Shown here: piece after piece, positions 1 through 17,151 of the stretch | Position numbering within the stretch: position 1 is the first letter of the stretch | Layout of the letters: every line of letters begins with the position of its first letter | DNA from: a virus | Length of the DNA: 20,683 nucleotides | Reading direction: 5' to 3' (one strand) | IMG/VR virus record: IMGVR_UViG_3300025769_001076 | Location: 1-20,683 of that record | Position numbers and translations under genes: made by a program | Notes under the pieces: model-generated | What the model was told of the DNA's origin: nothing | The model's database searches: none | What the model saw: only the letters and a program-made list of their open reading frames with translations

Positions 1-160
1 CACCTGATATAGAAATAATAAGCTGATTAAGACTTGCTATCTCTGCTGTGGTACCACCTATCTGTACATTAAACTGGGTTGCTGATCCGTTAAATCCTGA
101 ACTAATGTCATCGATTTTCTGGAACGCGCCAAAATCTAAACCTGGTCCTATATATCCCAT
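1..160 (-). CDS. Tail-fibre-type protein, N-terminal part (3' end outside window)
   Basis: An open frame starts with ATG at 160 and runs without a stop to the left edge, giving the first 53 residues. It begins MGYIGPGLDFGAFQKIDDIS. The MGYIGP opening is shared with the gene at 3127-3570, and such openings head short tail-fibre or appendage proteins in marine phages. The start overlaps the TAA of the preceding gene by one base (TAATG), so translation is probably coupled. Position at the end of the receptor-binding array supports a fibre role. The C-terminal domain, which would define the function, lies outside the window. Confidence 0.7.
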   Translation of the reverse strand, partial: MGYIGPGLDFGAFQKIDDISSGFNGSATQFNVQIGGTTAEIASLNQLIISISG

Positions 161-378
161 TATAATTTATCCATCTCCTCTAATATTTTTGCATAGGTAA
201 TTTCACTATGAGGACAAGTAGTTGTAGATATTGCACTACCTAAATCATCTACTCCTGTTTCCCACTCAACTTTATTAAATGCATCTTCTGTTGTTTCTGC
301 TCCTCTTACTACAAAAGGTACATTTGGTTTTAATACTTTAATTGCCATAATAAACTTATCTATTGGTTTTAATTCCAT
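160..378 (-). CDS. Small protein, possible tail-fibre accessory or assembly factor
   Basis: This 72-residue protein has no clear relative that I can name. It contains a short predicted alpha/beta core (IMAIKVLKP, PFVVRGAET, FNKVEWETG) and ends with a helical segment, HSEITYAKILEEMDKL. The layout, with a short core then a P-x-x-E-I-x-x-K-I-x-E helix, resembles small proteins that follow tail-fibre genes in many phages and often act as fibre assembly chaperones. That role is inferred from layout and position only. Its ATG overlaps the stop of the upstream fibre-like gene by one base and its own stop overlaps the next fibre gene by one base, so it is translationally locked between two fibre genes. 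Confidence 0.6.
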   Translation of the reverse strand: MELKPIDKFIMAIKVLKPNVPFVVRGAETTEDAFNKVEWETGVDDLGSAISTTTCPHSEITYAKILEEMDKL

Positions 379-986
379 TATGCTAATACCTCCATTAATG
401 TCATATTAGCTCTTTGGCTGTTATAACTTGATTCTATTCTTGCATTATCATTACCTCTATAAGCGGCTATTTGATGTCTATAAGTAATAGCACTTGTTGT
501 GCTATGCGAAGTATCAAGATAATGCCAAGTTATAGTGTTAATATAATGTCTATTACTTATCCCATTTCTATCTGACGCATACCATCCTTCAAATGCATTT
601 GCGTTTTGATACAAAGTTGTATTACTACCTCCTATTGTTCTTTTAACTCTAAATGCTCCACCCATATCATCATGGCTGTTAGTGTGGTGCATAAATACAT
701 GGTCTGTAATTGTAAGAAGTATTTTACTGTTAGTTGCACTAGGAGTTATTGAAGCTGTTAAATTTGTATCTGCATAAGATGTACCTGTTTGTGATGTAGC
801 AGAAGTAGTTTCTGCAAATATTATTTGATTAACTTTTCCACCACCAGCTTCACCTGTGCCAATAGCCGTGCTACCTGTAAACTTTAAAAACTGTCCCGTA
901 GTTCCTGACGCTAGGCCCGTGCCACCATTTGCTACAGGGATGGTGCCTGTTATTCCTTTTGTCATATCTATTGTTGCAAATGCCAT
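378..986 (-). CDS. Tail-fibre / receptor-binding-type protein with GGTGL repeat-like N-terminus
   Basis: This 202-residue protein begins MAFATIDMTKGITGTIPVAN and continues into GGTGLASGTTGQFLKFTG (about residues 21-38), a motif type common in phage tail-fibre shafts. The rest (about residues 55-202) is rich in Thr, Ser, Asn and aromatic residues in short beta-strand-like blocks and ends ANMTLMEVLA. The coding DNA for the N-terminus (901-960) is about 53% GC, while the C-terminal region (721-780) is about 30%, suggesting a conserved anchor joined to a variable domain. It starts one base after the stop of the previous paralogue-like gene. The likely role is receptor binding or fibre structure at the tail; the ligand is unknown. 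Confidence 0.75.
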   Translation of the reverse strand: MAFATIDMTKGITGTIPVANGGTGLASGTTGQFLKFTGSTAIGTGEAGGGKVNQIIFAETTSATSQTGTSYADTNLTASITPSATNSKILLTITDHVFMHHTNSHDDMGGAFRVKRTIGGSNTTLYQNANAFEGWYASDRNGISNRHYINTITWHYLDTSHSTTSAITYRHQIAAYRGNDNARIESSYNSQRANMTLMEVLA

Positions 987-987
987 G

Positions 988-1563
988 TTACGCTCCTAAT
1001 ATCCTATATGCTTGAAAGAAACATTGTTGCTGTACTGTTGTATCTCTACTGCTTCCGTTATTATGCCTTGCATATATTTCATAATAATTTGTTGCACTTG
1101 CATCAACTATATAAGTAAAATTGAAAAAAGCATCTTGTGTAGCGTCTGCACCATTTGATGTAAAACCCATGGAACGACTATTCAATTCACTTCCATTGAC
1201 ATATAAATATATTGAGCAATATTTAGCATCTGATAAATTAGAGAATCCAACTTGAGCATTAATGCAATATTTACCTGCAACACTAGGAGTAAACCTTGAG
1301 TTACTCGTATCGTATGTTCCATTAGAGTCAAATATTTCATCAGTAAATGTAATTTTTGTTGTGCTGTCTTGACTTACAGATTGTGCTGAACTTGTTTTTT
1401 GAGCTAAGAAAGCAGGAGTATTAGCAATACCTTCTAACGTATTCGTACCTGCACTATTAAGCGTAGCTCCTGAAGGAATAGTGATGGTATCCCCTGATTG
1501 GCCCACGGTTATCGTGCCAGTGCCCGTTCTCTTGAGTATCGTGTCTACTTTTAGGGTGCTCAT
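988..1563 (-). CDS. Receptor-binding-type protein with C1q-like C-terminal domain (paralogue 3)
   Basis: This protein of 191 residues has the anchor MSTLKVDTILKRTGTGTITV followed by GQSGDTITIPSGATLNSAGT (about residues 21-40), closely matching the two paralogues at 1560-2168 and 2540-3127. From about residue 50 it becomes a beta-rich domain with FTDEIFDSNGTYD, FTPSVAGKYCINAQVGF and a final FFQAYRILGA strand. This order of strands resembles the C1q/TNF-like jelly-roll used by phage receptor-binding proteins. That fold assignment is inference from pattern. Its ATG overlaps the TGA of the upstream paralogue (ATGA). The N-terminal DNA is GC-rich (about 53% over 1501-1560) and the C-terminal DNA AT-rich (about 25% over 1081-1140). 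Confidence 0.75.
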   Translation of the reverse strand: MSTLKVDTILKRTGTGTITVGQSGDTITIPSGATLNSAGTNTLEGIANTPAFLAQKTSSAQSVSQDSTTKITFTDEIFDSNGTYDTSNSRFTPSVAGKYCINAQVGFSNLSDAKYCSIYLYVNGSELNSRSMGFTSNGADATQDAFFNFTYIVDASATNYYEIYARHNNGSSRDTTVQQQCFFQAYRILGA

Positions 1564-2168
1564 GTTATTAATTTAAACCCCATAAAAAATGTATCTCTGT
1601 CATTACCTCCTGTAATTGAACAAGAGCCTCCACCATCATCTTGAGCATAAGCATAAACTTCAACATATTGACTTGCTGTTAAATTTAGAACTGCAGTAAC
1701 ACTTTTTCCTTCTGCGTAACTTGGATTTGCATTCATAAAATGAATTTCTTGTGCCGCAATAGAACCATTAATAGTAAATCTCATACCACTTCCAATTAAT
1801 CCATTGTTAGCATCAGTTGCGTTTATTTTTGCAGCTGTTGTAAAAAAATATTTTCCATCAGAAGGAGCTGTAAATTTATCTGAAGCAAAAACATTATCAG
1901 TATCAAACACTTCATCATCAAATGTAACTTTAGTCCAACCACCACTACTTAATCCTGTTTGATTACTTGATTTTCTTACATGAAAATTTGCAGAGTTAGT
2001 TCCACCAAAACCTGTAGCTGTACCAGCGTTAGCAATCGTCACCCCTGACGGGATGTTGACCGTGTCACCTGAAACACCTAAATTAATAGTCGACGTGTTC
2101 GTGCTACCAATTTGCATGGTAGACGTTCCAGATCTGGTATCTATCGTATCTACTTGTACTTTACTCAA
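1560..2168 (-). CDS. Receptor-binding-type protein with C1q-like C-terminal domain (paralogue 2)
   Basis: This 202-residue protein opens MSKVQVDTIDTRSGTSTMQI and then has GVSGDTVNIPSGVTIANAGT and TGFGGTN, the shared anchor of the array, here lengthened by a short insertion (STNTSTINL). After about residue 60 it has the beta pattern VTFDDEVFDTDNVFASDKFT, APSDGKYFFTTAAKI and the ending FFMGFKLIT, almost the same as YFTGYKLIT in the paralogue at 2540-3127. A C1q/TNF-like jelly-roll is the best guess. It lies downstream of the small XkdW-like gene. A purine-rich ribosome site (AAAGGAGAAG) stands just before the start. Function is inferred as host-surface recognition. Confidence 0.75.
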   Translation of the reverse strand: MSKVQVDTIDTRSGTSTMQIGSTNTSTINLGVSGDTVNIPSGVTIANAGTATGFGGTNSANFHVRKSSNQTGLSSGGWTKVTFDDEVFDTDNVFASDKFTAPSDGKYFFTTAAKINATDANNGLIGSGMRFTINGSIAAQEIHFMNANPSYAEGKSVTAVLNLTASQYVEVYAYAQDDGGGSCSITGGNDRDTFFMGFKLIT

Positions 2169-2179
2169 TTACTTCTCCT

Positions 2180-2515
2180 TTACGATTTAGGGTTTGCATC
2201 TTTGACCGACTTGATGCGAGCTTTCCAAGAATCAATATTCTTGTATATCTCGTCTAGCTGATCGCCAATATCACCATAAGCCGCTTTTCTTGTACTTTTT
2301 ACAGTGTTGTTTTTCTCTTCGGTATTGCCTGCCGTTTCATAATTCGCGAGAATTGCGTCCGTTGGTTTTGTTAAACCATCCACGCTCCACGTTTTTATGT
2401 ACGGGCCACTACCGTCCGAGTCATCCTGTAAAGCTACATTGCCTCCTGGACCGAAATCAGCCGTTTTGCTGTTCGCTTCACAGTAAAGCTTAACTTTAGT
2501 TGATAGACTTGCCAT
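2180..2515 (-). CDS. XkdW-like small tail protein
   Basis: This is a 111-residue protein whose C-terminal third (about residues 76-111) reads TRKAAYGDIGDQLDEIYKNI followed by DSWKARIKSVKDANPK. This pattern of AAYGxIGDQLDxIY, a W-containing helix and an AVKxxNP tail is typical of proteins annotated as XkdW-like in phages, after the PBSX gene; their exact role is not established. The N-terminal part (LSTKVKLYCEANSKTADFGP) gives no recognisable domain. It sits between two receptor-binding paralogues with its own strong ribosome site (AAAGGAGG), so a role in attaching or assembling fibres is plausible. Parts of its DNA are richer in GC than the neighbouring C-terminal fibre domains. Confidence 0.7.
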   Translation of the reverse strand: MASLSTKVKLYCEANSKTADFGPGGNVALQDDSDGSGPYIKTWSVDGLTKPTDAILANYETAGNTEEKNNTVKSTRKAAYGDIGDQLDEIYKNIDSWKARIKSVKDANPKS

Positions 2516-2539
2516 ATAGACCTCCTTTTAAAATTGTTA

Positions 2540-3127
2540 TCATGTTATTAATTTATATCCTGTAAAATAAGATTGATTTTCTCCTTGTATTAAATATGCT
2601 GTATCACTTCCATTAGCGTTGTTACACATACCATAAACTTGATAATAGTCAGATGCACTAGATGAATAATCAACTGTACTAATACTAAGACTATTTTCAT
2701 TTAATCCATCAAAACCACTATCTATAAATCGTTGATAATTTTGTGCAATTTTTGACCCATTTTTTGTAATCCATACTTGTATTCTTCTTCCTAAATTACT
2801 GTCATTAAAATTATAAAATACAGTAGCATTTAAATAATAATAACCAACACTTGCAGGTGTGTATTTATAAGTTGCAGTATCAAATTTAGCATCTACATCA
2901 AAACTTTCTGTATTCATTTCAAGAAGTGTATCGGTATCGTGACTCATAAGTTGTGAGCCATTATTATATGCTCTAAAAAGATTATCATTAGTTCCACCAA
3001 ATCCTGTTTGAGTACCATTGTTTGTAATTGTTGCACCTGACGGAATCGTGATTGTGTCTCCTGAACTACCAAGCTCTAATGATGTTCCTGATTGTGGATC
3101 TAATTTGTCTACAAATAAAGTTCCCAT
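2540..3127 (-). CDS. Receptor-binding-type protein with C1q-like C-terminal domain (paralogue 1)
   Basis: This 195-residue protein has the anchor MGTLFVDKLDPQSGTSLELG then SSGDTITIPSGATITNNGT and QTGFGGTN, the clearest form of the array's common N-terminus. The C-terminal domain (about residues 60-195) has YKYTPASVGYYYLNATVFYN, RRIQVWITKNGSKIAQNYQ and the final strand YFTGYKLIT, in the order expected for a C1q/TNF-like jelly-roll. Many Tyr and Asn residues are exposed-loop types, as in ligand-binding surfaces. Its ATG overlaps the stop of the upstream fibre gene (TAATG). It probably sits at the tail tip and contacts the host; the receptor cannot be told from the sequence. Confidence 0.75.
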   Translation of the reverse strand: MGTLFVDKLDPQSGTSLELGSSGDTITIPSGATITNNGTQTGFGGTNDNLFRAYNNGSQLMSHDTDTLLEMNTESFDVDAKFDTATYKYTPASVGYYYLNATVFYNFNDSNLGRRIQVWITKNGSKIAQNYQRFIDSGFDGLNENSLSISTVDYSSSASDYYQVYGMCNNANGSDTAYLIQGENQSYFTGYKLIT

Positions 3128-3570
3128 TATATAACTGTCAATGTCCCTTCTACCGTTACGGTGTTAGTAAAGTTTACTGGTCCTGCTACAAAAGCATTTT
3201 GTGTGGACGCTACTGTAATAGTTGATGTCACTGTTGCCAAGTTTAAATACATCCCGTTAAACGAACCTGAGATCGCGGTGTGATCAACGCTCCCATCAGA
3301 TGGTGTTTGTGATCCAACAGCAGCTCCTATGTTTACTACATATGCTGCATCTGTTCCTGCTAATACATTTGAGCCTGTAGATAATTGTGTACCACTTGCT
3401 GTATAATCAACATCTGGTTTTTGTACGACGTTGTTGACAACAAATCTTATTTCTGACGAATTGGCAACAGGTGTATTTAAAGTAAATGTTGTATCTGATC
3501 CATTACCCGTAATAGTCTGGGTAGACATGGATTTAAACTGATCACTATTTCTTGGTCCAATATAACCCAT
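3127..3570 (-). CDS. Tail-fibre-type protein (MGYIGP family)
   Basis: This 147-residue protein begins MGYIGPRNSDQFKSMSTQTI then TGNGSDTTFTLNTPVANSSE and IRFVVNNVVQKPDVDYTASG. The middle motif (TFTLxxPVxxxxxIxVxVNxVxQxPxxDYT) is a beta-sandwich module widely found at the N-terminus of marine phage tail fibres, where it likely attaches to the tail. The C-terminal part (about residues 95-147) is a Thr/Val-rich stretch (TSTITVASTQNAFVAGPVNF) typical of a beta-helical or fibrous end. The same MGYIGP opening appears in the truncated gene at 1-160. A good ribosome site (AGGAGAG) precedes the ATG. It is short for a complete fibre, so it may be an adaptor for the receptor-binding paralogues. Confidence 0.75.
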   Translation of the reverse strand: MGYIGPRNSDQFKSMSTQTITGNGSDTTFTLNTPVANSSEIRFVVNNVVQKPDVDYTASGTQLSTGSNVLAGTDAAYVVNIGAAVGSQTPSDGSVDHTAISGSFNGMYLNLATVTSTITVASTQNAFVAGPVNFTNTVTVEGTLTVI

Positions 3571-3579
3571 CTACTCTCC

Positions 3580-3906
3580 TTACGTGCTTATGCTATCAAT
3601 ATAGGATAACCAACAATCTGCTGAACTAGCTGTATCAGAACTGACTTTTACAGCATCGCCTGTTAATAAAACTACTTTTGCACCTCCATCAATAAACTCA
3701 ATACTAGAACCTTGAGGGATGCTAACATTTTTAGCTAGGTAATAATCATTACCACCACTTGAGATAAACACGTTTACTTGTATTGTTTGTGTTACTACAT
3801 TCGCAACACGAATACCAATAACTGCATCGTCTGAGTCAGCGGTGAGCAATGTTGAAGCGGAAGTTCCTATATTTCTTGCTTTTACGTTTTCAAAATCTTG
3901 TGCCAT
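3580..3906 (-). CDS. Small beta-sandwich virion-type protein
   Basis: This 108-residue protein is predicted to be all beta: VIGIRVANVVTQTIQVNVFI (about residues 29-48), then DYYLAKNVSIPQGSSIEFI, GAKVVLLTGDAVKVSSDTAS and a last strand CWLSYID. This pattern, a sandwich with the IPxGxSxxFIxG and VLxxGDxxKV motifs, recurs in small structural proteins of marine phages that lie near the fibre genes. I infer a virion or appendage component; the precise location on the particle is unknown. It is tightly flanked by fibre genes on both sides, with a ribosome site (AAGGA) upstream of the ATG. Confidence 0.65.
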   Translation of the reverse strand: MAQDFENVKARNIGTSASTLLTADSDDAVIGIRVANVVTQTIQVNVFISSGGNDYYLAKNVSIPQGSSIEFIDGGAKVVLLTGDAVKVSSDTASSADCWLSYIDSIST

Positions 3907-6678: not shown

Positions 6679-7023
6679 CTATTTTTTTTTACTCCCGCCC
6701 ATTCTTCCTGGTTTTCTACCACCAAGAGCTTTTCGTCGTCCTAGTAAACCTACAGCACTTCTAATTTTACCCGCTATTGACATATCTTTGCCAGCAGGAT
6801 TTCCTTTACCTTTCATTATAGAACCCATCAAAGCAGCTTTTGCACCACCTTTAGTTCCCTTCATAGCAGCTTTTTTAGCAGCAGCGCTTCTACCAGTTGG
6901 TTTTTTGGCTAAAGGTTTAGCAATAGGCCCGCCTTTTGCCATTTTCTTTTTAGGACCCATCATTCCGCCACCACGTTTCTTGACTGCTCCTCCTCGTTTC
7001 ATTGCTTGTTTCTTTTTAAACAT
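6679..7023 (-). CDS. Very basic Lys/Gly-rich small protein
   Basis: This 114-residue protein is extremely basic: it has about 35 Lys/Arg residues and just one acidic residue (in AGKDMS). It opens MFKKKQAMKRGGAVKKRGGG and has Ala/Lys stretches (SAAAKKAAMKGTKGGAKAAL) and ends GRRKALGGRKPGRMGGSKKK. No enzyme domain is visible. The composition resembles histone-tail or core DNA-condensing proteins. It is preceded by a strong ribosome site (GGAGGT) and overlaps the upstream gene by eight bases. Lying just ahead of the neck genes, it could be packaged with the DNA or neutralise charge at the head vertex; both ideas are inference. Confidence 0.65.
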   Translation of the reverse strand: MFKKKQAMKRGGAVKKRGGGMMGPKKKMAKGGPIAKPLAKKPTGRSAAAKKAAMKGTKGGAKAALMGSIMKGKGNPAGKDMSIAGKIRSAVGLLGRRKALGGRKPGRMGGSKKK

Positions 7024-7591
7024 CTTGACCTCCGAATATTCGTCTATAAGTTTTTTGTCTAGATACCACGACGTCTCGATAATATCCCTTTGGCCACAGT
7101 TTATAGTAACCTTGACGATGTAGTTTATCAGAAGCTTCTTGTAATTGCGAGAACTTTTGTATGAGCATCATTGAATACTCCAAGTCACTATCTACAACAG
7201 GGGTGTCCCCATTTGGAGTAACCAAAAACTCTTGTTCTTCCTCATTGGCTGGATTGAGGGGATGAAAACCCATAAAAAATATATCTTTTTTATTATACCA
7301 ACCATTATAGTCATCAATCATATCTTGAAACTGATCTAATGAATAGTTAAAATACGGATCACAGAATATCAATATTTCATGAACTTTAAAATCAAGTTGT
7401 TTTAAATGACCATTTAATTCTCCTTTATATTGTTTAAATTTTCTTTTTGTTTCAATAACAACTTTGTGATCATTCCATGTTTTTTTAGCAAAAGGACACG
7501 CTGGAAAACCACCTAAATGTTTATTAGGTATTTCTAAAAATTCCTCTGACCACTTACGTACGTCTTGTATTATTTCTTCTTTAGAATACAC
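7016..7591 (-). CDS. Unrecognised 191-residue protein with CPFAKK motif
   Basis: I do not recognise a named family. From a GTG start at 7591 the protein begins (M)YSKEEIIQDVRKWSEEFLEI and carries GFPACPFAKKTWNDHKVVIE, with Cys in a P-x-C-P-F-A-K-K motif, then HEILIFCDPYFNYSLDQFQD and IFFMGFHPLNPANEEEQEFL. The alternating strands (KVVIE, VHEILIFCDP, DIFFMGFHPLN) and helices suggest a compact alpha/beta fold. The C-terminus (HRQGYYKLWPKGYYRDVVVS) is aromatic and basic. The open frame extends to a TTG at 7663, but that would overlap the upstream gene by 83 bases, so I prefer GTG at 7591, which overlaps by 11. It is the only non-basic, non-virion-like protein in the small-gene block, so it may be an accessory enzyme or regulator. 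Confidence 0.6.
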   Translation of the reverse strand: MYSKEEIIQDVRKWSEEFLEIPNKHLGGFPACPFAKKTWNDHKVVIETKRKFKQYKGELNGHLKQLDFKVHEILIFCDPYFNYSLDQFQDMIDDYNGWYNKKDIFFMGFHPLNPANEEEQEFLVTPNGDTPVVDSDLEYSMMLIQKFSQLQEASDKLHRQGYYKLWPKGYYRDVVVSRQKTYRRIFGGQDV

Positions 7592-7898
7592 CTTTAAAAT
7601 CAAAGCCTCTAATGGCTGCTCCTGCCCTTCTTTCTTTTGAGATAAGACCTCCTCTAGCTGCAAATGTTTTTACATTTGTAGGTTTACCTCCTGGATTGCC
7701 CGCAGCCCTCTTTCTGCTGACAGCACTCGCCTTTTGCGACTTTGTCATCCGTGTGGCTTTTGCAAGTGGAACGCATTTCGGATACGCTCTTTTGCTCCCC
7801 TTTTTTCTGCCACAAGGTTGATATTTTCCGTCTTTCTTTGGAGCTCCAATATCGACCCACTTCTCTTTCACCCATGCTCTTAGTCCTTTCTTTGCCAT
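7581..7898 (-). CDS. Small basic Cys-containing protein (GLRAWVKEKWVDIGAPKK type)
   Basis: This 105-residue protein begins MAKKGLRAWVKEKWVDIGAP then KKDGKYQPCGRKKGSKRAYP and KCVPLAKATRMTKSQKASAV. The motifs WVDIGAPKKDGKYQPCGR, YPKCVP and RMTKxQxxxAVxRKR occur in a family of small hypothetical proteins of marine phages. Two Cys residues (PCGR and PKCVP) about 14 residues apart could bind a metal or form a disulphide, but a full metal site is not seen. The rest is Lys/Arg-rich (SRKRAAGNPGGKP). Its start overlaps the previous stop (TAATG). It may bind nucleic acid in the virion or the cell; function unknown. Confidence 0.75.
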   Translation of the reverse strand: MAKKGLRAWVKEKWVDIGAPKKDGKYQPCGRKKGSKRAYPKCVPLAKATRMTKSQKASAVSRKRAAGNPGGKPTNVKTFAARGGLISKERRAGAAIRGFDFKGVF

Positions 7899-8170
7899 TA
7901 ACTATATTTAGTTTTTTTGCGTTTGTTTTCTGCAACCGCTCCGCACCCGCGCGCGATGCCACCTTTATTAAATTTAGAAACTGCTTTTCTTTGTTGTGAA
8001 AGTTTGTTTGATTCAATCATTCCTCCAGCAGCTTTTTTATTTTTCTTTTTACCGCCTGGTGTTACTTTTCCAGAACACACAGCACTTGCATACATGTTCG
8101 CATAAGCAGAAGGGTAAACTTTAAATTTTCTTTTAGCTGCAGCTTTTCCTCTAGCACATAATTTACCCAT
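7898..8170 (-). CDS. Small basic Cys-containing protein (MGKLCARGKAAAKRKFKVYP type)
   Basis: This 90-residue protein starts MGKLCARGKAAAKRKFKVYP then SAYANMYASAVCSGKVTPGG. The opening MGKLCxxGKxxAKRKFKVYPSAYANMYASxVCxG is one I recall from small proteins of marine and T4/T7-like phages with no known function. It has Cys at residues 5 and 32 and another near the end (RGCGAV), and few acidic residues. The remainder is Lys-rich and Gly-rich (KKKNKKAAGG, NKGGIARG). It partly overlaps the 46-residue gene upstream by eight bases and is coupled to the next gene (TAATG). A role as a DNA- or RNA-binding virion or early protein is possible but only by composition. Confidence 0.75.
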   Translation of the reverse strand: MGKLCARGKAAAKRKFKVYPSAYANMYASAVCSGKVTPGGKKKNKKAAGGMIESNKLSQQRKAVSKFNKGGIARGCGAVAENKRKKTKYS

Positions 8171-8303: not shown

Positions 8304-8851
8304 TATTTCATTTGGTTAAGAGGGTTTTCCAGAGTTAGCTTTATTTGTTTATCTATATTTTCTTGTAACTCTTTCATCTTTTCTTCTAAGTTCGTTTTTA
8401 ACTTTGTCATATCTTCTTCAACAGTATCTATTGCAATCTTTAAATCTTTTGAATTATCTCTAGCATCTTCTTTAACTTGTTGTTCTACATCATTGACAAT
8501 CTTCTCTACTCTTCTTACATCTTGCCGAAGGTCGTTTTTCAATTCGTTTGCCACATCACTCACTAAGCGGATTTCTGACATCATCATTTCCATTTCTTGC
8601 ATTATCATTTCAACTTCTGTTTGTATAAGCTCCGTCTTGCTCACCATTTCTTCTTTAGTCAAAGCAATAGTCTTATCAAAGTCTGAAAGGTCAGGGGCAA
8701 CATATGACTCAATTTGCGCAGACATATCCTGAAATTTCTTGAACATCTCAAAACCGCCATATAAAACACCAACACTACTACTTAATGCTAGTATTATTGC
8801 GAGCATTTTTCCGCCCTTGAAAGTTATGCCTCCTATATTTACTTCTGCCAT
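8303..8851 (-). CDS. Membrane-anchored long coiled-coil protein
   Basis: This 182-residue protein has a single hydrophobic segment near the N-terminus (about residues 14-34, KGGKMLAIILALSSSVGVLY) followed by an almost continuous heptad-like coiled coil from about residue 45 to 180 (for example KTIALTKEEMVSKTELIQTE, MQEMEMMMSEIRLVSDVANE, NDVEQQVKEDARDNSKDLK). An N-in anchor with a long coiled coil to the other side of the membrane is likely, like an inner-membrane spanin or a stator arm, but no spanin partner with a lipobox is seen nearby. It overlaps the end of the 542-residue exported protein by 13 bases, so these are produced together. Function inferred only as an envelope-spanning element. 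Confidence 0.75.
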   Translation of the reverse strand: MAEVNIGGITFKGGKMLAIILALSSSVGVLYGGFEMFKKFQDMSAQIESYVAPDLSDFDKTIALTKEEMVSKTELIQTEVEMIMQEMEMMMSEIRLVSDVANELKNDLRQDVRRVEKIVNDVEQQVKEDARDNSKDLKIAIDTVEEDMTKLKTNLEEKMKELQENIDKQIKLTLENPLNQMK

Positions 8852-10467
8852 TGTTGCATTATCATTTCATCCATAAGAACGTCACTTCCTCCAAATAGAA
8901 AGTATTGTGCTATGTTGTTAGTTGTTAGTTCAGCATCAGGTATTGCATTATCTGTAAAGAATCCTTGTATATCATTTAAACTTTGTTGACCTTCAAAGAA
9001 TGATTTAGAGTTACCTAATACTTGCATCACAATTAATGTTTTTAACTGATTTGCAGAGTCATATCTACCCTTATCACCCATCTTCTTTAATATTTTTTTA
9101 GCTGCGACTTCTTTTTTACTCTCTTCTTTTTTTACCTCGTCTTGATCCTTATCCTCTGTTTCTTCCATATCTTCTTCGCTATCTTCATCTTTAGCAACCT
9201 CTGGTGAGCTTTCTTCCTGCTCAGGCTCCTCTTTCGTAGTAGGTTCAGTTTCCTTAGTATCTTCTTCAGTAGGTTCATCTTGTACCTCCTCTTGTTCTGG
9301 CTCAGAAACTTCTGGTTCTGGCTCAGGTTCTGGTTCATTTATTTCTGGCTCTGGTTCTGGCTCAGGTTGTGTTTCTACTTCAACCTCTGGCTCAGGCATT
9401 TCCATCTCCATCTCCATTTCTATCTCTGTCTCGACACTTGCCATTTCCATTTCTGGCATTTCCATCTCCATCTCTGGTATTTCTATTTCCATAACAGGCA
9501 TTTCCATCTCCATCTCCATTTCTACCATTTCATAAGAAACGTCTGAGTCTGGCTCCTGTATTGGTTCTATTTCTATTTCTCCACCAGGCTGTTCATTAAA
9601 ATCATTGTGATCAATAATATTTTCTACAATATCTATTACTTCTGTTTCTGTGCTACCACCGTAAGCAACCCACATTTCTACTGTTGTAATAGATTGTTGC
9701 ACGATTGTAGATATTACATTGTAAAGTACGTTTATGGTAATATCATCAAAGAGCGGGCCGATTGCCATATTGATATCACGCCCACCAATTTCGATTATCA
9801 ACGTTGTTATAGTGCCTGCAAAATCAAAACCATTTTCATATTCTTGATATCCACTAGCTACACCAGATTCTGATAATATATCTGTGCCACTAAATACATT
9901 TGTATTTCCGTTTCTACCTGTAATATGCATATAGATACGATCTTGCGCATCTTGCTTATCTACTTTGATTGTATAATTTGTTCTTCCTCCATTTTCTATA
10001 TCAAGGGAAGATATATCGACTGTGTTGACAAACGTGGTTCCCATTCCCTCCACGCCCATTGTGCTTGTACTGTTGCCCGATCCTGTAATTTGTGCACACT
10101 TATCTGTACCTAATTTAAAACAACCAGTTCCTGAAGGCATGCTTGCGGGGCCTTGACCTCCAAAATCCTGGTCCATATCACCTTCAAATCTAGGCTGTAC
10201 AAAACCATTATCACCATCTAATAAATCACCTGAATCTTCATTTGTTACAGTTGTTGTGGTTGTATTCGTTGTAGTTTCTGTGGTTACAGTATAACCATCC
10301 GCTTCATATTCTATTGTTTCTGTAACAGTTTGATCAATTATTTCTTCAATAGTAGGAGTACAAAGTCCAACTGTATCTGTTGAACAATCTACAGCTTTAC
10401 TAGAAAAGGATAGGGAAACCGATATACAGAGCCATAGCCATAAATAAAAACTTCTGGAATTCGCCAT
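8839..10467 (-). CDS. Exported 542-residue protein with acidic EM/EP repeats
   Basis: The N-terminus is a signal peptide (SFYLWLWLCISVSLSF, likely cut after SSKA near residue 25). Then come a Thr-rich stretch (about 50-70), a probable beta-sandwich (about 130-250; strands YTIKVDKQDAQDRIYMHITG and TTLIIEIGGRDINM, ending GPLFDDITINVLYN) that looks lectin-like, a strongly repetitive acidic zone (EMEMEMP, then PEPEPEPE, about 310-410), a Glu/Asp/Lys segment and a short C-terminal domain (QYFLFGGSDVLMDEMIMQQW). The cysteines before residue 130 (DCSTDT, GLCTPT, GTGCFKLGTDKCA) suit an oxidising periplasm. It is the largest member of a module of three envelope genes. No known phage protein of this layout comes to mind; a stalk-like adhesin or periplasm-spanning role is inference. 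Confidence 0.7.
   Translation of the reverse strand: MANSRSFYLWLWLCISVSLSFSSKAVDCSTDTVGLCTPTIEEIIDQTVTETIEYEADGYTVTTETTTNTTTTTVTNEDSGDLLDGDNGFVQPRFEGDMDQDFGGQGPASMPSGTGCFKLGTDKCAQITGSGNSTSTMGVEGMGTTFVNTVDISSLDIENGGRTNYTIKVDKQDAQDRIYMHITGRNGNTNVFSGTDILSESGVASGYQEYENGFDFAGTITTLIIEIGGRDINMAIGPLFDDITINVLYNVISTIVQQSITTVEMWVAYGGSTETEVIDIVENIIDHNDFNEQPGGEIEIEPIQEPDSDVSYEMVEMEMEMEMPVMEIEIPEMEMEMPEMEMASVETEIEMEMEMEMPEPEVEVETQPEPEPEPEINEPEPEPEPEVSEPEQEEVQDEPTEEDTKETEPTTKEEPEQEESSPEVAKDEDSEEDMEETEDKDQDEVKKEESKKEVAAKKILKKMGDKGRYDSANQLKTLIVMQVLGNSKSFFEGQQSLNDIQGFFTDNAIPDAELTTNNIAQYFLFGGSDVLMDEMIMQQWQK
9301..9523 (-). repeat. Low-complexity direct repeats inside the 542-residue exported protein
   Basis: A 27-base unit starting GGCATTTCCATCTCC (plus strand) occurs identically at 9395-9421 and 9497-9523, and its first 20 bases again at 9455-9474; it encodes the EMEMEMP repeat. 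An 18-base unit, CTGGTTCTGGCTCAGGTT, occurs at 9312-9329 and 9351-9368 and encodes the PEPEPEPE part. Perfect repeats this close can expand or contract by slippage or recombination, changing the length of the linker. Confidence 0.85.
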
Positions 10468-10978
10468 CGCTTACACCTTCTTCTACATTAATCTTTAAAA
10501 CATCTGTATCTTCAAATACTGTACTACCCTCTGGTATCATGTTTGGATTTGATTTCCATTTTTCCAAAGCTTCACTTCCAATAGCACCCATATATGGAGG
10601 TGGAGTGCCTGCCATAACTAAACTGTCAAAAACTCTTGGGTCAGTTGCGAGCAATGAAATTGAGGCAACTTTAAGCCCTGATGCATACAACTGGCGAGAA
10701 AGCTTTAAAAGCTGACACAGCTCATCGTCCACAACTACGCCTGTAGCGAGACCGAGTATGTTGGTTTGAATTGCGCCTGACGTTGCTACCTTACAAATAT
10801 CAGAATTGTTTACAACAACACTTGGAGCATTTGCGGTTGGTACCGATTTATCCGTCACAACGGTAGAACTGACCGTGTTCGTATCTGCAGCAAGCGCTGA
10901 GTTCATCATGCTATTTAAAAAGAATATTAATATGGTTGCAAGAATTACACCTATTGTTATTGGTTTTAACATTTCCAT
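10400..10978 (-). CDS. Envelope protein with signal peptide/anchor and C-terminal TM
   Basis: This 192-residue protein begins MEMLKPITIGVILATILIFF and continues LNSMMNSALAADTNTV, giving a long hydrophobic segment with an ALA-A cleavage-like site near residue 31. The C-terminus is also hydrophobic (FLFMAMALYIGFPILF) and could be a TM helix. The intervening domain has two Cys (NSDICKV, DDELCQL), consistent with a periplasmic disulphide, and a helix LLKLSRQLYASGLKVA. I do not recognise the family. The start may be ATG at 10972 (MLKPIT), because AAGAGA lies a better distance from it. Its last 68 bases overlap the next gene, and both reading frames there encode hydrophobic residues. It opens the three-gene envelope module. 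Confidence 0.7.
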   Translation of the reverse strand: MEMLKPITIGVILATILIFFLNSMMNSALAADTNTVSSTVVTDKSVPTANAPSVVVNNSDICKVATSGAIQTNILGLATGVVVDDELCQLLKLSRQLYASGLKVASISLLATDPRVFDSLVMAGTPPPYMGAIGSEALEKWKSNPNMIPEGSTVFEDTDVLKINVEEGVSDGEFQKFLFMAMALYIGFPILF

Positions 10979-11241
10979 CTCTTTCTTGCTTGTCTTAATC
11001 TTGATTTAGGATTTGCTGCTGCTTTTGGAAATTTTTTCATTTGTCCTGCACTTCTTGCACAAAAAGATTTTCTACGTTTTGCAGCTTTAGATCCTTTTTT
11101 AACTTTGCCTGTTACAGCAGTTTTTAATTTAGAACCAGGGTTCATAGCTCTATACTTCTTGACCCCAGCTTTAGTCATTCCCGCCCCAGACTTAGTGGGG
11201 CGAAAATTCTTTTTATTTTTCTTTGGTTGATTATCAGCCAT
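10966..11241 (-). CDS. Small basic protein with SFCAR motif (DUF6321-like)
   Basis: This 91-residue protein has GAGMTKAGVKKYRAMNPGSK then LKTAVTGKVKKGSKAAKRRK and SFCARSAGQMKKF, ending RLRQARKRWKC. This sequence pattern (MTxAGVxxYRxxNPGSKLKTAVT...GSKAAKRRKSFCAR...PxSRLxxARxRWxC) is a well-conserved domain of unknown function in phages and some giant viruses, which I recall as DUF6321; the number is from memory. Two Cys (SFCAR and the C-terminal residue) are part of the conserved pattern. I prefer ATG at 11241 to the TTG at 11247; it overlaps the stop of the preceding gene by eight bases. Function unknown; the charge (one acidic residue) suggests nucleic acid binding. Confidence 0.8.
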   Translation of the reverse strand: MADNQPKKNKKNFRPTKSGAGMTKAGVKKYRAMNPGSKLKTAVTGKVKKGSKAAKRRKSFCARSAGQMKKFPKAAANPKSRLRQARKRWKC

Positions 11242-11524
11242 ATACAAACAGAACAGATGTTACGTTTGTTAACGTAGCATGTAAAGCACTTGGAAAGTCT
11301 AAACCATCATCTGTAAAATCAACATTTATAGTAGTTGTAGCGGATCCTGGTGTAGCAATAGTTGCTAGTGTTGAACCACCAGAACCATTTTTTAACACGA
11401 TAGATCCTGCAGAACCAGCACAAACTGCATATATACTGTATAGTCTCGCTGAACTTGCTACAGCATTACCAGTACTTGTTATTGTTGCTGTTTCTACACC
11501 AGCTGTAGTTTTTACTAATGCCAT
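11234..11524 (-). CDS. Small beta-rich virion-type protein
   Basis: This 96-residue protein is Ala/Thr/Gly/Ser-rich with a predicted all-beta fold: VETATITSTGNAVASSARLY (about residues 10-29), SIYAVCAGSAGSIVLKNGSG, then TTTINVDFTDDGLDFPSALH and ATLTNVTSVLFVYG. Such short beta-sandwiches appear in phage structural clusters near capsid genes, often as decoration or appendage proteins, but I cannot name the family. It comes after the gene at 11534-11965 and is followed by the SFCAR basic protein. Function is inferred from context as a virion component. Confidence 0.65.
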   Translation of the reverse strand: MALVKTTAGVETATITSTGNAVASSARLYSIYAVCAGSAGSIVLKNGSGGSTLATIATPGSATTTINVDFTDDGLDFPSALHATLTNVTSVLFVYG

Positions 11525-14984: not shown

Positions 14985-15401
14985 TTACATTATGTTAGCT
15001 GGCAATATATCTCTAGGATCATCAACGACTGCCAGAATCTCATCTTCGTTAATAATACGTAACTCACCACCATCAATCTTTACTCGAGATCCTGCATAGC
15101 GAGTTATTATAACCCAATCACCCTCTTTACACCAAGGACCATCAGGATATCTCTCTTTATCTTTATAACATAAAGATCCAGTCTTTAAGACTTTACAAAT
15201 ATTTGTTGTTATTTGTGACTCTTCTACTGTTTCATCAGTAAGAATAACACCACCTTTTGTTTTACCTTTTAATTTTAAGGGAAATAATACTATTCTCCAA
15301 CCGACAGGCTGAGGAATTTTTTCTAGTTCTTTTTTTTGTTTTTGTTTTTCTGCACCATCCCAAACGTGTTTTGGTACAATTAATTTAGGTTTAGTCGTCA
15401 T
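14985..15401 (-). CDS. groES-like: GroES-like co-chaperonin (Cpn10)
   Basis: This 138-residue protein has the hallmarks of a Cpn10: PQPVGWRIVLFP (about residues 30-41), a mobile-loop region around KTKGGVILTDETVEES (about 47-62) including GGVIL, equivalent to the GroES GGIVL that binds GroEL, then CKEGDWVIITRYAGSRVKID and the final NEDEILAVVDD, matching GroES SESDILAIVEA. It has about 30 extra basic N-terminal residues, a ten-residue insertion (KDKERYPDGP) before the GDWV strand and a C-terminal tail beyond typical Cpn10 (about 97 residues). No GroEL is in the window, so it presumably pairs with host GroEL, as T4 gp31 does for folding the coat. Its location in the head operon, just upstream of the scaffold, suggests capsid folding. 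Confidence 0.92.
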   Translation of the reverse strand: MTTKPKLIVPKHVWDGAEKQKQKKELEKIPQPVGWRIVLFPLKLKGKTKGGVILTDETVEESQITTNICKVLKTGSLCYKDKERYPDGPWCKEGDWVIITRYAGSRVKIDGGELRIINEDEILAVVDDPRDILPANIM

Positions 15402-15588
15402 CGTCTAGCTCCGTTTTCTTCAGCAGGTCCGTGAGTTCCTGTTCAGTTTCTTCAAGACCGCGAAGTTTACCAGTCAAATACCGATATTCGTCCCAATCTT
15501 TTACACCATTGTATATAGCTTCTTTTACAGTGTCTTGTCTATCTTTTAGTTGATTTTTAAAGTAAGTAAATAAATTTTCTATTCGCAT
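15391..15588 (-). CDS. Small helical acidic-tailed protein
   Basis: This 65-residue protein reads as two helices: ENLFTYFKNQLKDRQDTVKE and YRYLTGKLRGLEETEQELTD, ending in ELDDDD. The two-helix hairpin with YxxLxGKLxGLExxExELxxLL resembles small phage proteins found near lysis or head genes in marine phages; no function is known to me. It overlaps the lysozyme gene by 10 bases and the GroES-like gene by 11, so it is embedded in the message joining lysis and chaperone genes. It may simply act with the lysozyme or head assembly. Confidence 0.7.
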   Translation of the reverse strand: MRIENLFTYFKNQLKDRQDTVKEAIYNGVKDWDEYRYLTGKLRGLEETEQELTDLLKKTELDDDD

Positions 15589-16019
15589 GATTTCATTTGG
15601 TCAGCTAATTTTTTGCAACGATTTGGAGTTTGTTTATTCCATTTCGAGTCGAGCATCTCGTAGCTCGCACCAATAAAATTGCTTTCCTGCAGGCATTTCC
15701 ACATGTTACGGAACTTGGACACGCCTGTAGGGCCAAGCTGAAATACCATTTCGGTAATGGTATGTTGAGCAGTTGTAGGCAAATCAGTGACACCATGTTC
15801 TTCCATGAGTGTTCTAGCTTTACCTATTGCAGTGTTTAAATCTTTATCAAATACTTCTTGTAGTTCTTCCTTGGTATATGTTTTACCATCTTCAAAATTA
15901 TCTTCGTGTACTACTTTATGACCCCAGCCTATTGTGCGAAATCCTTCGGTGTCTATGTATACGTGATCTCTAAAGCCTTCGGATAATTTTACGGAACCAG
16001 CTAATTCGTCGTATGTCAC
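15579..16019 (-). CDS. T4-type lysozyme (endolysin, GH24)
   Basis: This 146-residue muramidase cleaves the N-acetylmuramic acid to N-acetylglucosamine bonds of peptidoglycan. The catalytic triad of T4 lysozyme is visible as Glu14 (KLSEGFRDHVY), Asp23 (YIDTEGF) and Thr29 (RTIGWGH). The C-terminal core motif SKWNKQTPNRCKKLADQ matches the T4-type W-x-x-Q-T-P-N-R-A helix. Length fits single-domain GH24 endolysins. There is no signal peptide or anchor, so release needs the holin encoded just upstream. The start codon is GTG at 16019, overlapping the TGA of the holin gene (GTGA), which probably keeps its level tied to the holin. Confidence 0.95.
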   Translation of the reverse strand: MTYDELAGSVKLSEGFRDHVYIDTEGFRTIGWGHKVVHEDNFEDGKTYTKEELQEVFDKDLNTAIGKARTLMEEHGVTDLPTTAQHTITEMVFQLGPTGVSKFRNMWKCLQESNFIGASYEMLDSKWNKQTPNRCKKLADQMKSCE

Positions 16020-16429
16020 TTAGTAAGACCCTTTGCCTTCTCAAAAGTTCTGAGGCCCGATACGCCGAGCATTGAAGTGACAATTGCTAGAAGGGGCCCA
16101 GTTTCTATGGCAGGAGGCACAATATCCATACCTGAAAATTTTGCATACCAATCAATACAGGGAGATAAGATGAACGCGAAAAATAAAGCTAGGGCTCCGC
16201 ACCATCCTATAGCTGGTCGCCAGCCAGCAACGAATACGCTGCGATGGCTGGCTTCCTTTGCATTAACATCTAATTGCTTTTCTGCAAGCTTTTGTTGAAT
16301 GCGTTGCATGATAATTTTTTTATCTAATTTCTCTTCTTCTGATGTATGAATTGAATCTATAACGGAAGCAACTTGTTTTAAAGCTCCGTCTTTACCGCCT
16401 AGTAAACCAGATAACAATCCAAATGCCAT
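16016..16429 (-). CDS. Holin, 3TM/GTA-holin-like family
   Basis: This 137-residue protein has a cytoplasmic-type helical N-terminus (about residues 1-60, with EEEKLDKKIIMQRIQQKLAE), then RSVFVAGWRPAIGWCGALAL and FFAFILSPCIDWY (about 64-95), and a second hydrophobic stretch GPLLAIVTSMLGVSGLRTFE (about 111-130). The WRPAIGW motif and the LxxxLGxxxLRTxEKxKG ending are typical of the 3TM phage holin family (GTA-holin-like). It would form membrane lesions allowing the lysozyme through. ATG follows directly on the TAA of the 39-residue gene (TAA-ATG), and the gene overlaps the lysozyme GTG, so the three genes form one cassette. Confidence 0.88.
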   Translation of the reverse strand: MAFGLLSGLLGGKDGALKQVASVIDSIHTSEEEKLDKKIIMQRIQQKLAEKQLDVNAKEASHRSVFVAGWRPAIGWCGALALFFAFILSPCIDWYAKFSGMDIVPPAIETGPLLAIVTSMLGVSGLRTFEKAKGLTK

Positions 16430-16579: not shown

Positions 16580-16765
16580 CTATTTTACGCCTTTAAATGC
16601 TACTTTTTTAATTTGCATTCTGCTTGTTTGCCCTTGAGGTCCCGTTCCTTTGTTATCTTTTACTACAAAAGGAGAGTAAACTTTCTCTGCTGTTGAAGCA
16701 ATTTTAGTATTAGGAAATGGGTTTTTTTGAGGGACAATAGTCATTTTTGCATTTTTAAATTTCAT
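16580..16765 (-). CDS. Small basic hypothetical protein
   Basis: This 61-residue Lys-rich protein begins MKFKNAKMTIVPQKNPFPNT and ends TSRMQIKKVAFKGVK. The middle (KVYSPFVVKDNKGTGPQGQT) has a probable beta turn (KGTGPQGQ). I recall similar short proteins after portal genes in marine phages without a known role. Its ATG overlaps the TGA of the upstream gene (ATGA). It may bind the portal or DNA in the virion; this is only inference from charge and position. Confidence 0.65.
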   Translation of the reverse strand: MKFKNAKMTIVPQKNPFPNTKIASTAEKVYSPFVVKDNKGTGPQGQTSRMQIKKVAFKGVK

Positions 16766-17151
16766 TTTCTTGCCTTTCCATAACCGCGTGTAGCTAGTCT
16801 ACCCGCTAAACCACCTTTGGCAGCTTTAACAACTCCTCTGCCCATGAGAATATCTTTTTGTGTAACTTTGCCATCACCTGATAGATCAGGAAACTTGGAT
16901 GCCGAACCACCGTCCTTTGCCATTAATATTATATTACCTTCTTGATCTTTTTTTGTTACACCGTGTGGATTTCCAGGCACTTCTTTTCTTGCTGGAATGT
17001 CTCCACCGTACTTACCTTTTTTCTTTTTTTTAAAAGGCTTTCCTTGCGAAGCTCCTTGTTTTTGTTTCTTTTTTGAAAAAATATTTGGTATAGGATTTTG
17101 TTTACCGCTATACTCTTTTAAAAACTCTTCTTTTGTTTTCTTTTTTGGCAT
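16762..17151 (-). CDS. Basic protein with EF-hand-like loop
   Basis: This 129-residue protein has a very basic N-terminal half (KKKQKQGASQGKPFKKKKKG) and, near residues 89-100, the loop DLSGDGKVTQKD. The spacing D-x-S-x-D-G-K-V-T-x-x-D matches a calcium-binding EF-hand or dockerin loop, with Asp in place of Glu at position 12. It is followed by ILMGRGVVKAAKGGLAGRLA and a basic end. The combination of FPDLSGDGKVTQKDILxGRGVI and a basic tail is one I recall in marine phage proteins near the portal; function unknown. It could bind calcium and the capsid or DNA. Calcium is abundant in sea water, which makes the loop more plausible outside the cell than inside. Confidence 0.7.
   Translation of the reverse strand: MPKKKTKEEFLKEYSGKQNPIPNIFSKKKQKQGASQGKPFKKKKKGKYGGDIPARKEVPGNPHGVTKKDQEGNIILMAKDGGSASKFPDLSGDGKVTQKDILMGRGVVKAAKGGLAGRLATRGYGKARK

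Follow-up and report, generated by a model that had tools for sequence, protein, structure and literature searches.

The virus record IMGVR_UViG_3300025769_001076 of IMG/VR, a linear record of 20,683 bases analysed here over its whole length (the window), carries its structural genes on the minus strand. The tail genes at its left end probably form a multi-slot receptor-binding array of a pelagiphage-like podovirus, judging from sequence evidence. The genes are referred to by letters and are transcribed in the order K-J-I-H-G-F-E-D-X-C-B-A-Z-E'. Three paralogues, B, C and D, each combine a nearly invariant anchor, specific to its slot, with a C1q-like tip. Comparisons with related IMG/VR loci (numbered L) show that a tip is exchanged as a whole cassette that opens at the first tip codons and closes with the stop codon, that each slot changes independently, and that the same tip can move onto the anchor of another slot. 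A sequence-only reading of this DNA had posed two alternatives, either several receptor-binding proteins mounted together on one tail or a store of tips exchangeable through repeated anchor DNA. The two are not exclusive, and several tips per genome on slot-specific anchors combined with exchange fits best. The open reading frames (ORFs) proposed for the three genes have correct coordinates, all on the minus strand, and their paralogy is confirmed. The slots consist of the following parts.

2540-3127, minus strand: gene D, whole, paralogue of B and C
2987..3127, minus strand: slot-specific anchor of gene D (MGTLFVDKLDPQSGTSLELGSSGDTITIPSGATITNNGTQTGFGGTN); head 96% identical (median) among 46 slot-D members and about 48% to slots B and C
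3036..3064, minus strand: 29-base SGDT-PSG segment of gene D, 24/29 identical to the B segment and 23/29 to the C segment
2540..2986, minus strand: exchangeable C1q-like tip of gene D, up to the stop codon, based on an AlphaFold2 model, a C1QL3 match and low DNA identity with flanks 90-100% identical against L004
2540..2567, minus strand: 3' end and stop context of gene D, right-hand exchange edge; identity returns at the stop codon in L005/L033 and L026/L056
1560-2168, minus strand: gene C, whole, paralogue of B and D
1995..2168, minus strand: slot-specific anchor of gene C (LSKVQVDTIDTRSGTSTMQIGSTNTSTINLGVSGDTVNIPSGVTI...; TTG start); head 94% identical (median) among 18 slot-C members
2044..2072, minus strand: 29-base SGDT-PSG segment of gene C
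1560..1994, minus strand: exchangeable C1q-like tip of gene C, based on full-length homology to B and D and a drop of DNA identity against L004 and L002
1560..1587, minus strand: 3' end and stop context of gene C, right-hand exchange edge, sharing 86% of its bases with 2540-2567 of gene D
988-1563, minus strand: gene B, whole, paralogue of C and D
1423..1563, minus strand: slot-specific anchor of gene B (MSTLKVDTILKRTGTGTITVGQSGDTITIPSGATL...IA); head 96% identical (median) among 12 slot-B members
1469..1497, minus strand: 29-base SGDT-PSG segment of gene B
988..1422, minus strand: exchangeable C1q-like tip of gene B, beginning NTPAF; Pfam C1q E 9e-4 (below cut-off), phrog_15750 E 1e-11

Tip replacement within a slot is most apparent between close relatives. 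Where the backbone is at least 95% identical, 18 of 19 slot-D tip comparisons fall below 45% identity and the remaining one exceeds 90%; between close relatives, slot-D tips are almost always either about 30% or more than 90% identical. Loci L005 and L033 encode I, J, E and F proteins that are 100% identical and D tips that share 31%, with DNA identity falling past the anchor and returning at the stop codon. The slots change independently because L026 and L056 differ in slot D (tips 31% identical) yet share slot C (99%). The window itself shows a comparable profile against L004, with DNA identity of 90-100% through the D anchor, about 35-55% over the D tip, 70-100% over X and the C anchor, low values again over the C tip and a recovery at the start of B. 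Against both L004 and L002, identity over the C tip drops sharply from about 1987 to 1567. The region has the features of the receptor-binding proteins in metaviromic islands of pelagiphages, namely a C1q protein in the tail module with a conserved N-terminus and a hypervariable tip among near-identical phages. Comparing related contigs for C-terminal swaps between anchors had been suggested as a check, and such exchange turned out to be frequent although gene order is strictly co-linear, so the core idea of exchangeable tips holds. Loci of one contig were merged by sequence identity only, and some counts may include overlapping records.

Movement between slots is evident from 20 genuine tip pairs that are at least 80% identical on different anchors. 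These include the slot-D tip of L005 and the slot-C tip of L045 (95%), the slot-D tip of L002 and the slot-C tip of L005 (91%), and the tips of L028 and L141 (99%). A twenty-first pair (L236/L022) was dropped since a head offset by one residue was the only reason for its different-anchor label. Exchanges are observed mostly between phages. The sole within-contig case found is L102, where tips at 993-1550 and 3239-3784 are 98% identical on two anchors, possibly a copy made within one genome. Across the 20 pairs, the left edge of the DNA match lies at a median of +1 nucleotide from NTPxF, and the right edge at a median of +3 nucleotides past the last sense base, which is the stop codon. Selection may add to the sharpness of these edges, as proteins would stay functional only after exchanges at domain borders. 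The 29-base segments had been put forward as exchange sites. As the main crossover site the segment was rejected, since most edges lie at NTPxF and the stop codon; it may be used sometimes, because about 4 of the 20 left edges fall at its start or within it.

The slot proteins are about 200 residues long and share a layout of an invariant slot-specific head of about 23 residues, a short common stretch (SGDTITIPSGATI), probably the start of a beta shaft, and then the tip, in most cases a C1q-like domain. Heads are 94-96% identical (medians) within a slot, those of slot D reading MGTLFVDKLDPQSGTS..., and only about 48-58% identical between slots D, C and B. Tips are 24-31% identical (median), in the same slot and in different slots alike. 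The single shared anchor supposed earlier is therefore reduced to the SGDTITIPSGATI stretch, and the GT-x-TGFGG motif attributed to all three anchors is missing from B, which carries GTNTLEGIANTPAF. Across 49 loci, mean identity is 96% for the D head, 61% for tail gene I and 82% for E. Fourfold-degenerate sites in these loci are 82% identical in the D anchor, compared with 58% for gene E and 55% for gene I. At the beginning of gene X the value is 81%, and the control comparison at the beginning of gene E was misaligned. The high identity in the D anchor could reflect recombination through anchor DNA or constraint at gene starts. The slot-D anchors of L012, L016, L034, L045, L050 and L054 are lengthened by additional SGDT...PSG-type units, as if the length of the fibre shaft can vary.

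The tips of B, C and D are all C1q/TNF-like jelly rolls. The single-chain AlphaFold2 model of gene D shows a C1q jelly roll with a predicted local distance difference test (pLDDT) score of 89.5, and its best PDB match is C1QL3 (4qqp; E 6e-9, target-normalised template modelling score 0.85). A profile of the family matches the known C1q domains of adiponectin (E 2e-12) and C1q-related factor (E 4e-8), while single slot proteins stay below the Pfam C1q cut-off. The tip probably trimerises. Pairwise identity of the three proteins is 31-34% from end to end (BLASTP E 5e-26 to 2e-32), far beyond chance. Because this homology spans the full length, the C-termini are diverged versions of one domain, and not the different beta domains initially assumed. 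The 29-base segments lie exactly where they had been placed, and are no recurring repeat in the strict sense, with 21, 24 and 23 of 29 bases identical pairwise (72-83%). No long exact repeats were found around the anchors of B, C and D; no two of the genes share an exact match longer than the 16 nucleotides (TAAATTAATAACATGA) at the 3' ends of C and D.

Each head would fix its fibre to a set position on the tail, perhaps via E-type fibre-base proteins, and the tips would bind host surface molecules. Replacement would proceed by ordinary homologous or short-homology recombination between phages co-infecting one cell. This is the likely route because searches of 12 related records (24-61 kb) gave no match to a reverse transcriptase (PF00078) or to a tyrosine or serine recombinase (PF00589, PF00239). 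One of these records encodes a YqaJ-type exonuclease. The reading frame would be kept by the conserved anchor on one side and by the stop codon or the start of the next gene on the other. Each virion would then display several tips taken from a common pool. More tentatively, and with somewhat more doubt than confidence, we suggest that each invariant head could act as the private address of a single tail docking site, such that any tip of the pool could be loaded into any slot and each virion would carry one kind of tip per slot.

Metagenomic assembly could in principle mimic such exchange if assemblers had joined anchors and tips of different phages at repeated segments. Array contigs are indeed all metagenomic, and same-slot anchors are very similar in DNA among phages. 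However, heads of different slots share only about 50% of their residues, the 29-base segments reach 72-83%, and there is no long exact repeat at which a mis-join could occur. Many shared tips fall short of full identity, at 80-98%, which indicates that they have diverged since exchange. The cases also come from many samples, and an array of this kind occurs in a cultured phage as well, making an artefact very unlikely. We likewise consider it very improbable that the array is a reservoir of which a single gene is in use at any one time, with the rest kept as spares, even though tips occur on more than one anchor. Spare tips would have no need of the nearly invariant head that is peculiar to each slot. 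The idea of a store of silent tips also fails in the window, where all array copies are intact ORFs with their own starts, tightly packed, with overlaps between B and C and between D and E.

Ordinary divergence would require old duplicates whose tips evolve very fast under selection, with no cassette exchange. Vertical conservation of gene order and heads and the homology of the three window tips agree with such a history. Yet slot-D tip identity in close relatives is bimodal, the flanking DNA is near-identical right up to the edges, and near-identical tips on different anchors already contradict divergence, which we regard as extremely unlikely. A dedicated switching system reassorting tips inside one genome, either a diversity-generating retroelement or a shufflon-like inversion, finds some support in the L102 contig with nearly the same tip on two anchors, but is next to negligible given whole-tip replacement instead of scattered substitutions, the absence of reverse transcriptase and recombinase matches in the 12 records, first-set tips that are at most 41% identical within one contig, and a window array whose tips all have one orientation with no inverted copies or silent cassettes seen.

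Several observations weigh against exchange among slot-specific anchors as the full account. The contigs that show the array with exactly these slots all come from metagenomes, and most are short; the 12 records screened for recombinases may not be complete genomes. The best partner of a tip has the same anchor type in 27% of cases versus 14% for shuffled labels, pointing to a weak memory of the anchor. The window tips have no near-identical partner in another slot, the closest being the D tip and the slot-C tip of L004 at 55%. Movement between slots is therefore demonstrated in relatives and not for the window copies.

The array extends beyond the three slots. The fourth fibre-like gene with a different anchor, noted earlier, is present at 378-986, and the neighbouring features are listed here.

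3127..3570, minus strand: gene E, conserved fibre-base-like (MGYIGP...); phrog_18673 tail fibre, weak fold matches
2180..2515, minus strand: gene X, lying between slots D and C; XkdW-like by a Pfam match over the cut-off (E 1.5e-6), placed by synteny
378..986, minus strand: gene A, with another anchor (MAFATIDMTKGITG...) and the second tip class (...SATNSKILL...LMEVLA); phrog_6942 tail fibre
160..378, minus strand: gene Z, small protein between A and E', recurring in a few relatives
1..160, minus strand: E', first part of a second E-type gene (MGYIGP...), truncated at the contig end

Anchors accept several kinds of tip. A second tip class (SITPTSTSSKVLI...LMEIL), which is also the tip of gene A in the window (best E 1e-15), occurs in members with the same heads, and the same anchors carry collar-like and S74-like ends, as judged from sequence only. 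The order K-J-I-H-G-F-E-D-X-C-B-A is co-linear across the IMG/VR loci, with the exception of L028, where the order differs. In several relatives a second set of E-type and anchored genes follows the first. The left end of the window cuts inside this second set, at E', so the array is larger than had been claimed and runs past the contig end. The model of gene E has a mean pLDDT of 63.6 with only residues of about 12-90 confident, and its fold matches to N-terminal domains of fibres and tailspikes are weak (best E 0.003) and consistent with a fibre base. In the cultured phages HTVC203P (gp42) and HTVC019P, a single protein joins an E-like domain directly to a C1q tip (E 4e-15 and 1e-9, respectively), which suggests that E itself is a fibre base.

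The lineage is indicated by a portal that is 50-52% identical to those of the Pelagibacter phages HTVC027P and HTVC023P and by a capsid gene matching HTVC023P at 70% in DNA; these homologies place the virus in the HTVC023P/HTVC027P podovirus group. By portal and capsid, HTVC023P and 023Pt_psg01 are among the nearest complete relatives. Both have the same kind of anchor as the window array, in HTVC023P on tandem genes gp59-gp62, but their tips are long Gly-rich domains and not C1q. The cultured HTVC115P has gene X, an E-type gene and a tandem of three C1q genes led by gp59, which has an S1-type anchor. HTVC115P, HTVC203P and HTVC019P resemble the window in having tandem C1q genes near an XkdW-like gene, and differ in having fewer slots and other anchors, except for the S1-type anchor of HTVC115P gp59.

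Elsewhere in the window, all on the minus strand, 14985-15401 resembles a GroES/gp31-type co-chaperone, and HTVC023P and HTVC027P have an annotated co-chaperone GroES at the corresponding place before the capsid gene. The overlapping pair at 15579-16019 and 16016-16429 resembles a T4-type lysozyme and a holin-like membrane protein; both likenesses were drawn from the sequence only. A protein of 542 residues (8839-10467) has a signal-like N-terminus and long Glu/Met/Pro-rich repeats (EMEMEMEMP...), with a look-alike in HTVC115P gp53 near the C1q array of that phage. Small, strongly basic Lys/Gly-rich proteins of the KKMAKGG type are unusually many (6679-7023, 7581-7898, 7898-8170, 10966-11247 and 16762-17151).

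Relatives of SAR11 phages are very abundant in the ocean, and how they track variation of the host surface is only partly understood. Our analyses turn the notion of a hypervariable island into a concrete rule, in which anchors stay and complete tips move, also between slots. Testable predictions follow for docking, for the presence of several tips per virion and for where recombination falls. If the private-address reading is true, marine phages would share a combinatorial plug-in receptor array with tips of several fold classes.

Exchange of adhesins has precedents. In T-even phages, recombination at conserved motifs of the distal tail-fibre locus reportedly swaps receptor specificity (Tetart et al. 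1998). The array resembles that system in the swap of a putative adhesin by recombination at conserved motifs. T-even phages have one fibre position with motifs inside the adhesin region, whereas parallel slots with different anchors and exchange of the whole tip are found here. For pelagiphages, the available part of Mizuno et al. (2014; PMC3909814) describes C1q proteins beside the tail fibre with a conserved N-terminal part and a hypervariable C1q tip, XkdW proteins in the same metaviromic islands and under-recruitment of the C1q genes. The likeness lies in C1q proteins with a steadier N-terminus and a hypervariable tip; that part of the paper does not speak of anchors particular to a slot, of an array or of tips moving from one anchor to another. 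C1q variants in near-identical phages were reported in 2020 (PMC7468147). Several parallel slots with private anchors and a common tip pool were not found in the open-access literature searched. Hypervariable C1q tips in pelagiphages are hence already known, and slot-specific anchors with a shared tip pool look new. N-terminal domains that define the place of a receptor-binding protein are known from Klebsiella phages (PMC6872550). In Ackermannviridae, the branched TSP1-4 complex has conserved N-terminal domains with a set place and variable C-terminal recognition parts, and recombination at the conserved N-terminal domains is considered possible (PMC11414711). This complex and the window array both encode several receptor-binding proteins together, with variable C-termini and conserved N-termini, which define the place in the Ackermannviridae complex and would do so in the array. 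The Ackermannviridae proteins are large tailspikes with XD/TD domains, in contrast to the proteins of about 200 residues with C1q-like tips in this podovirus-like phage.

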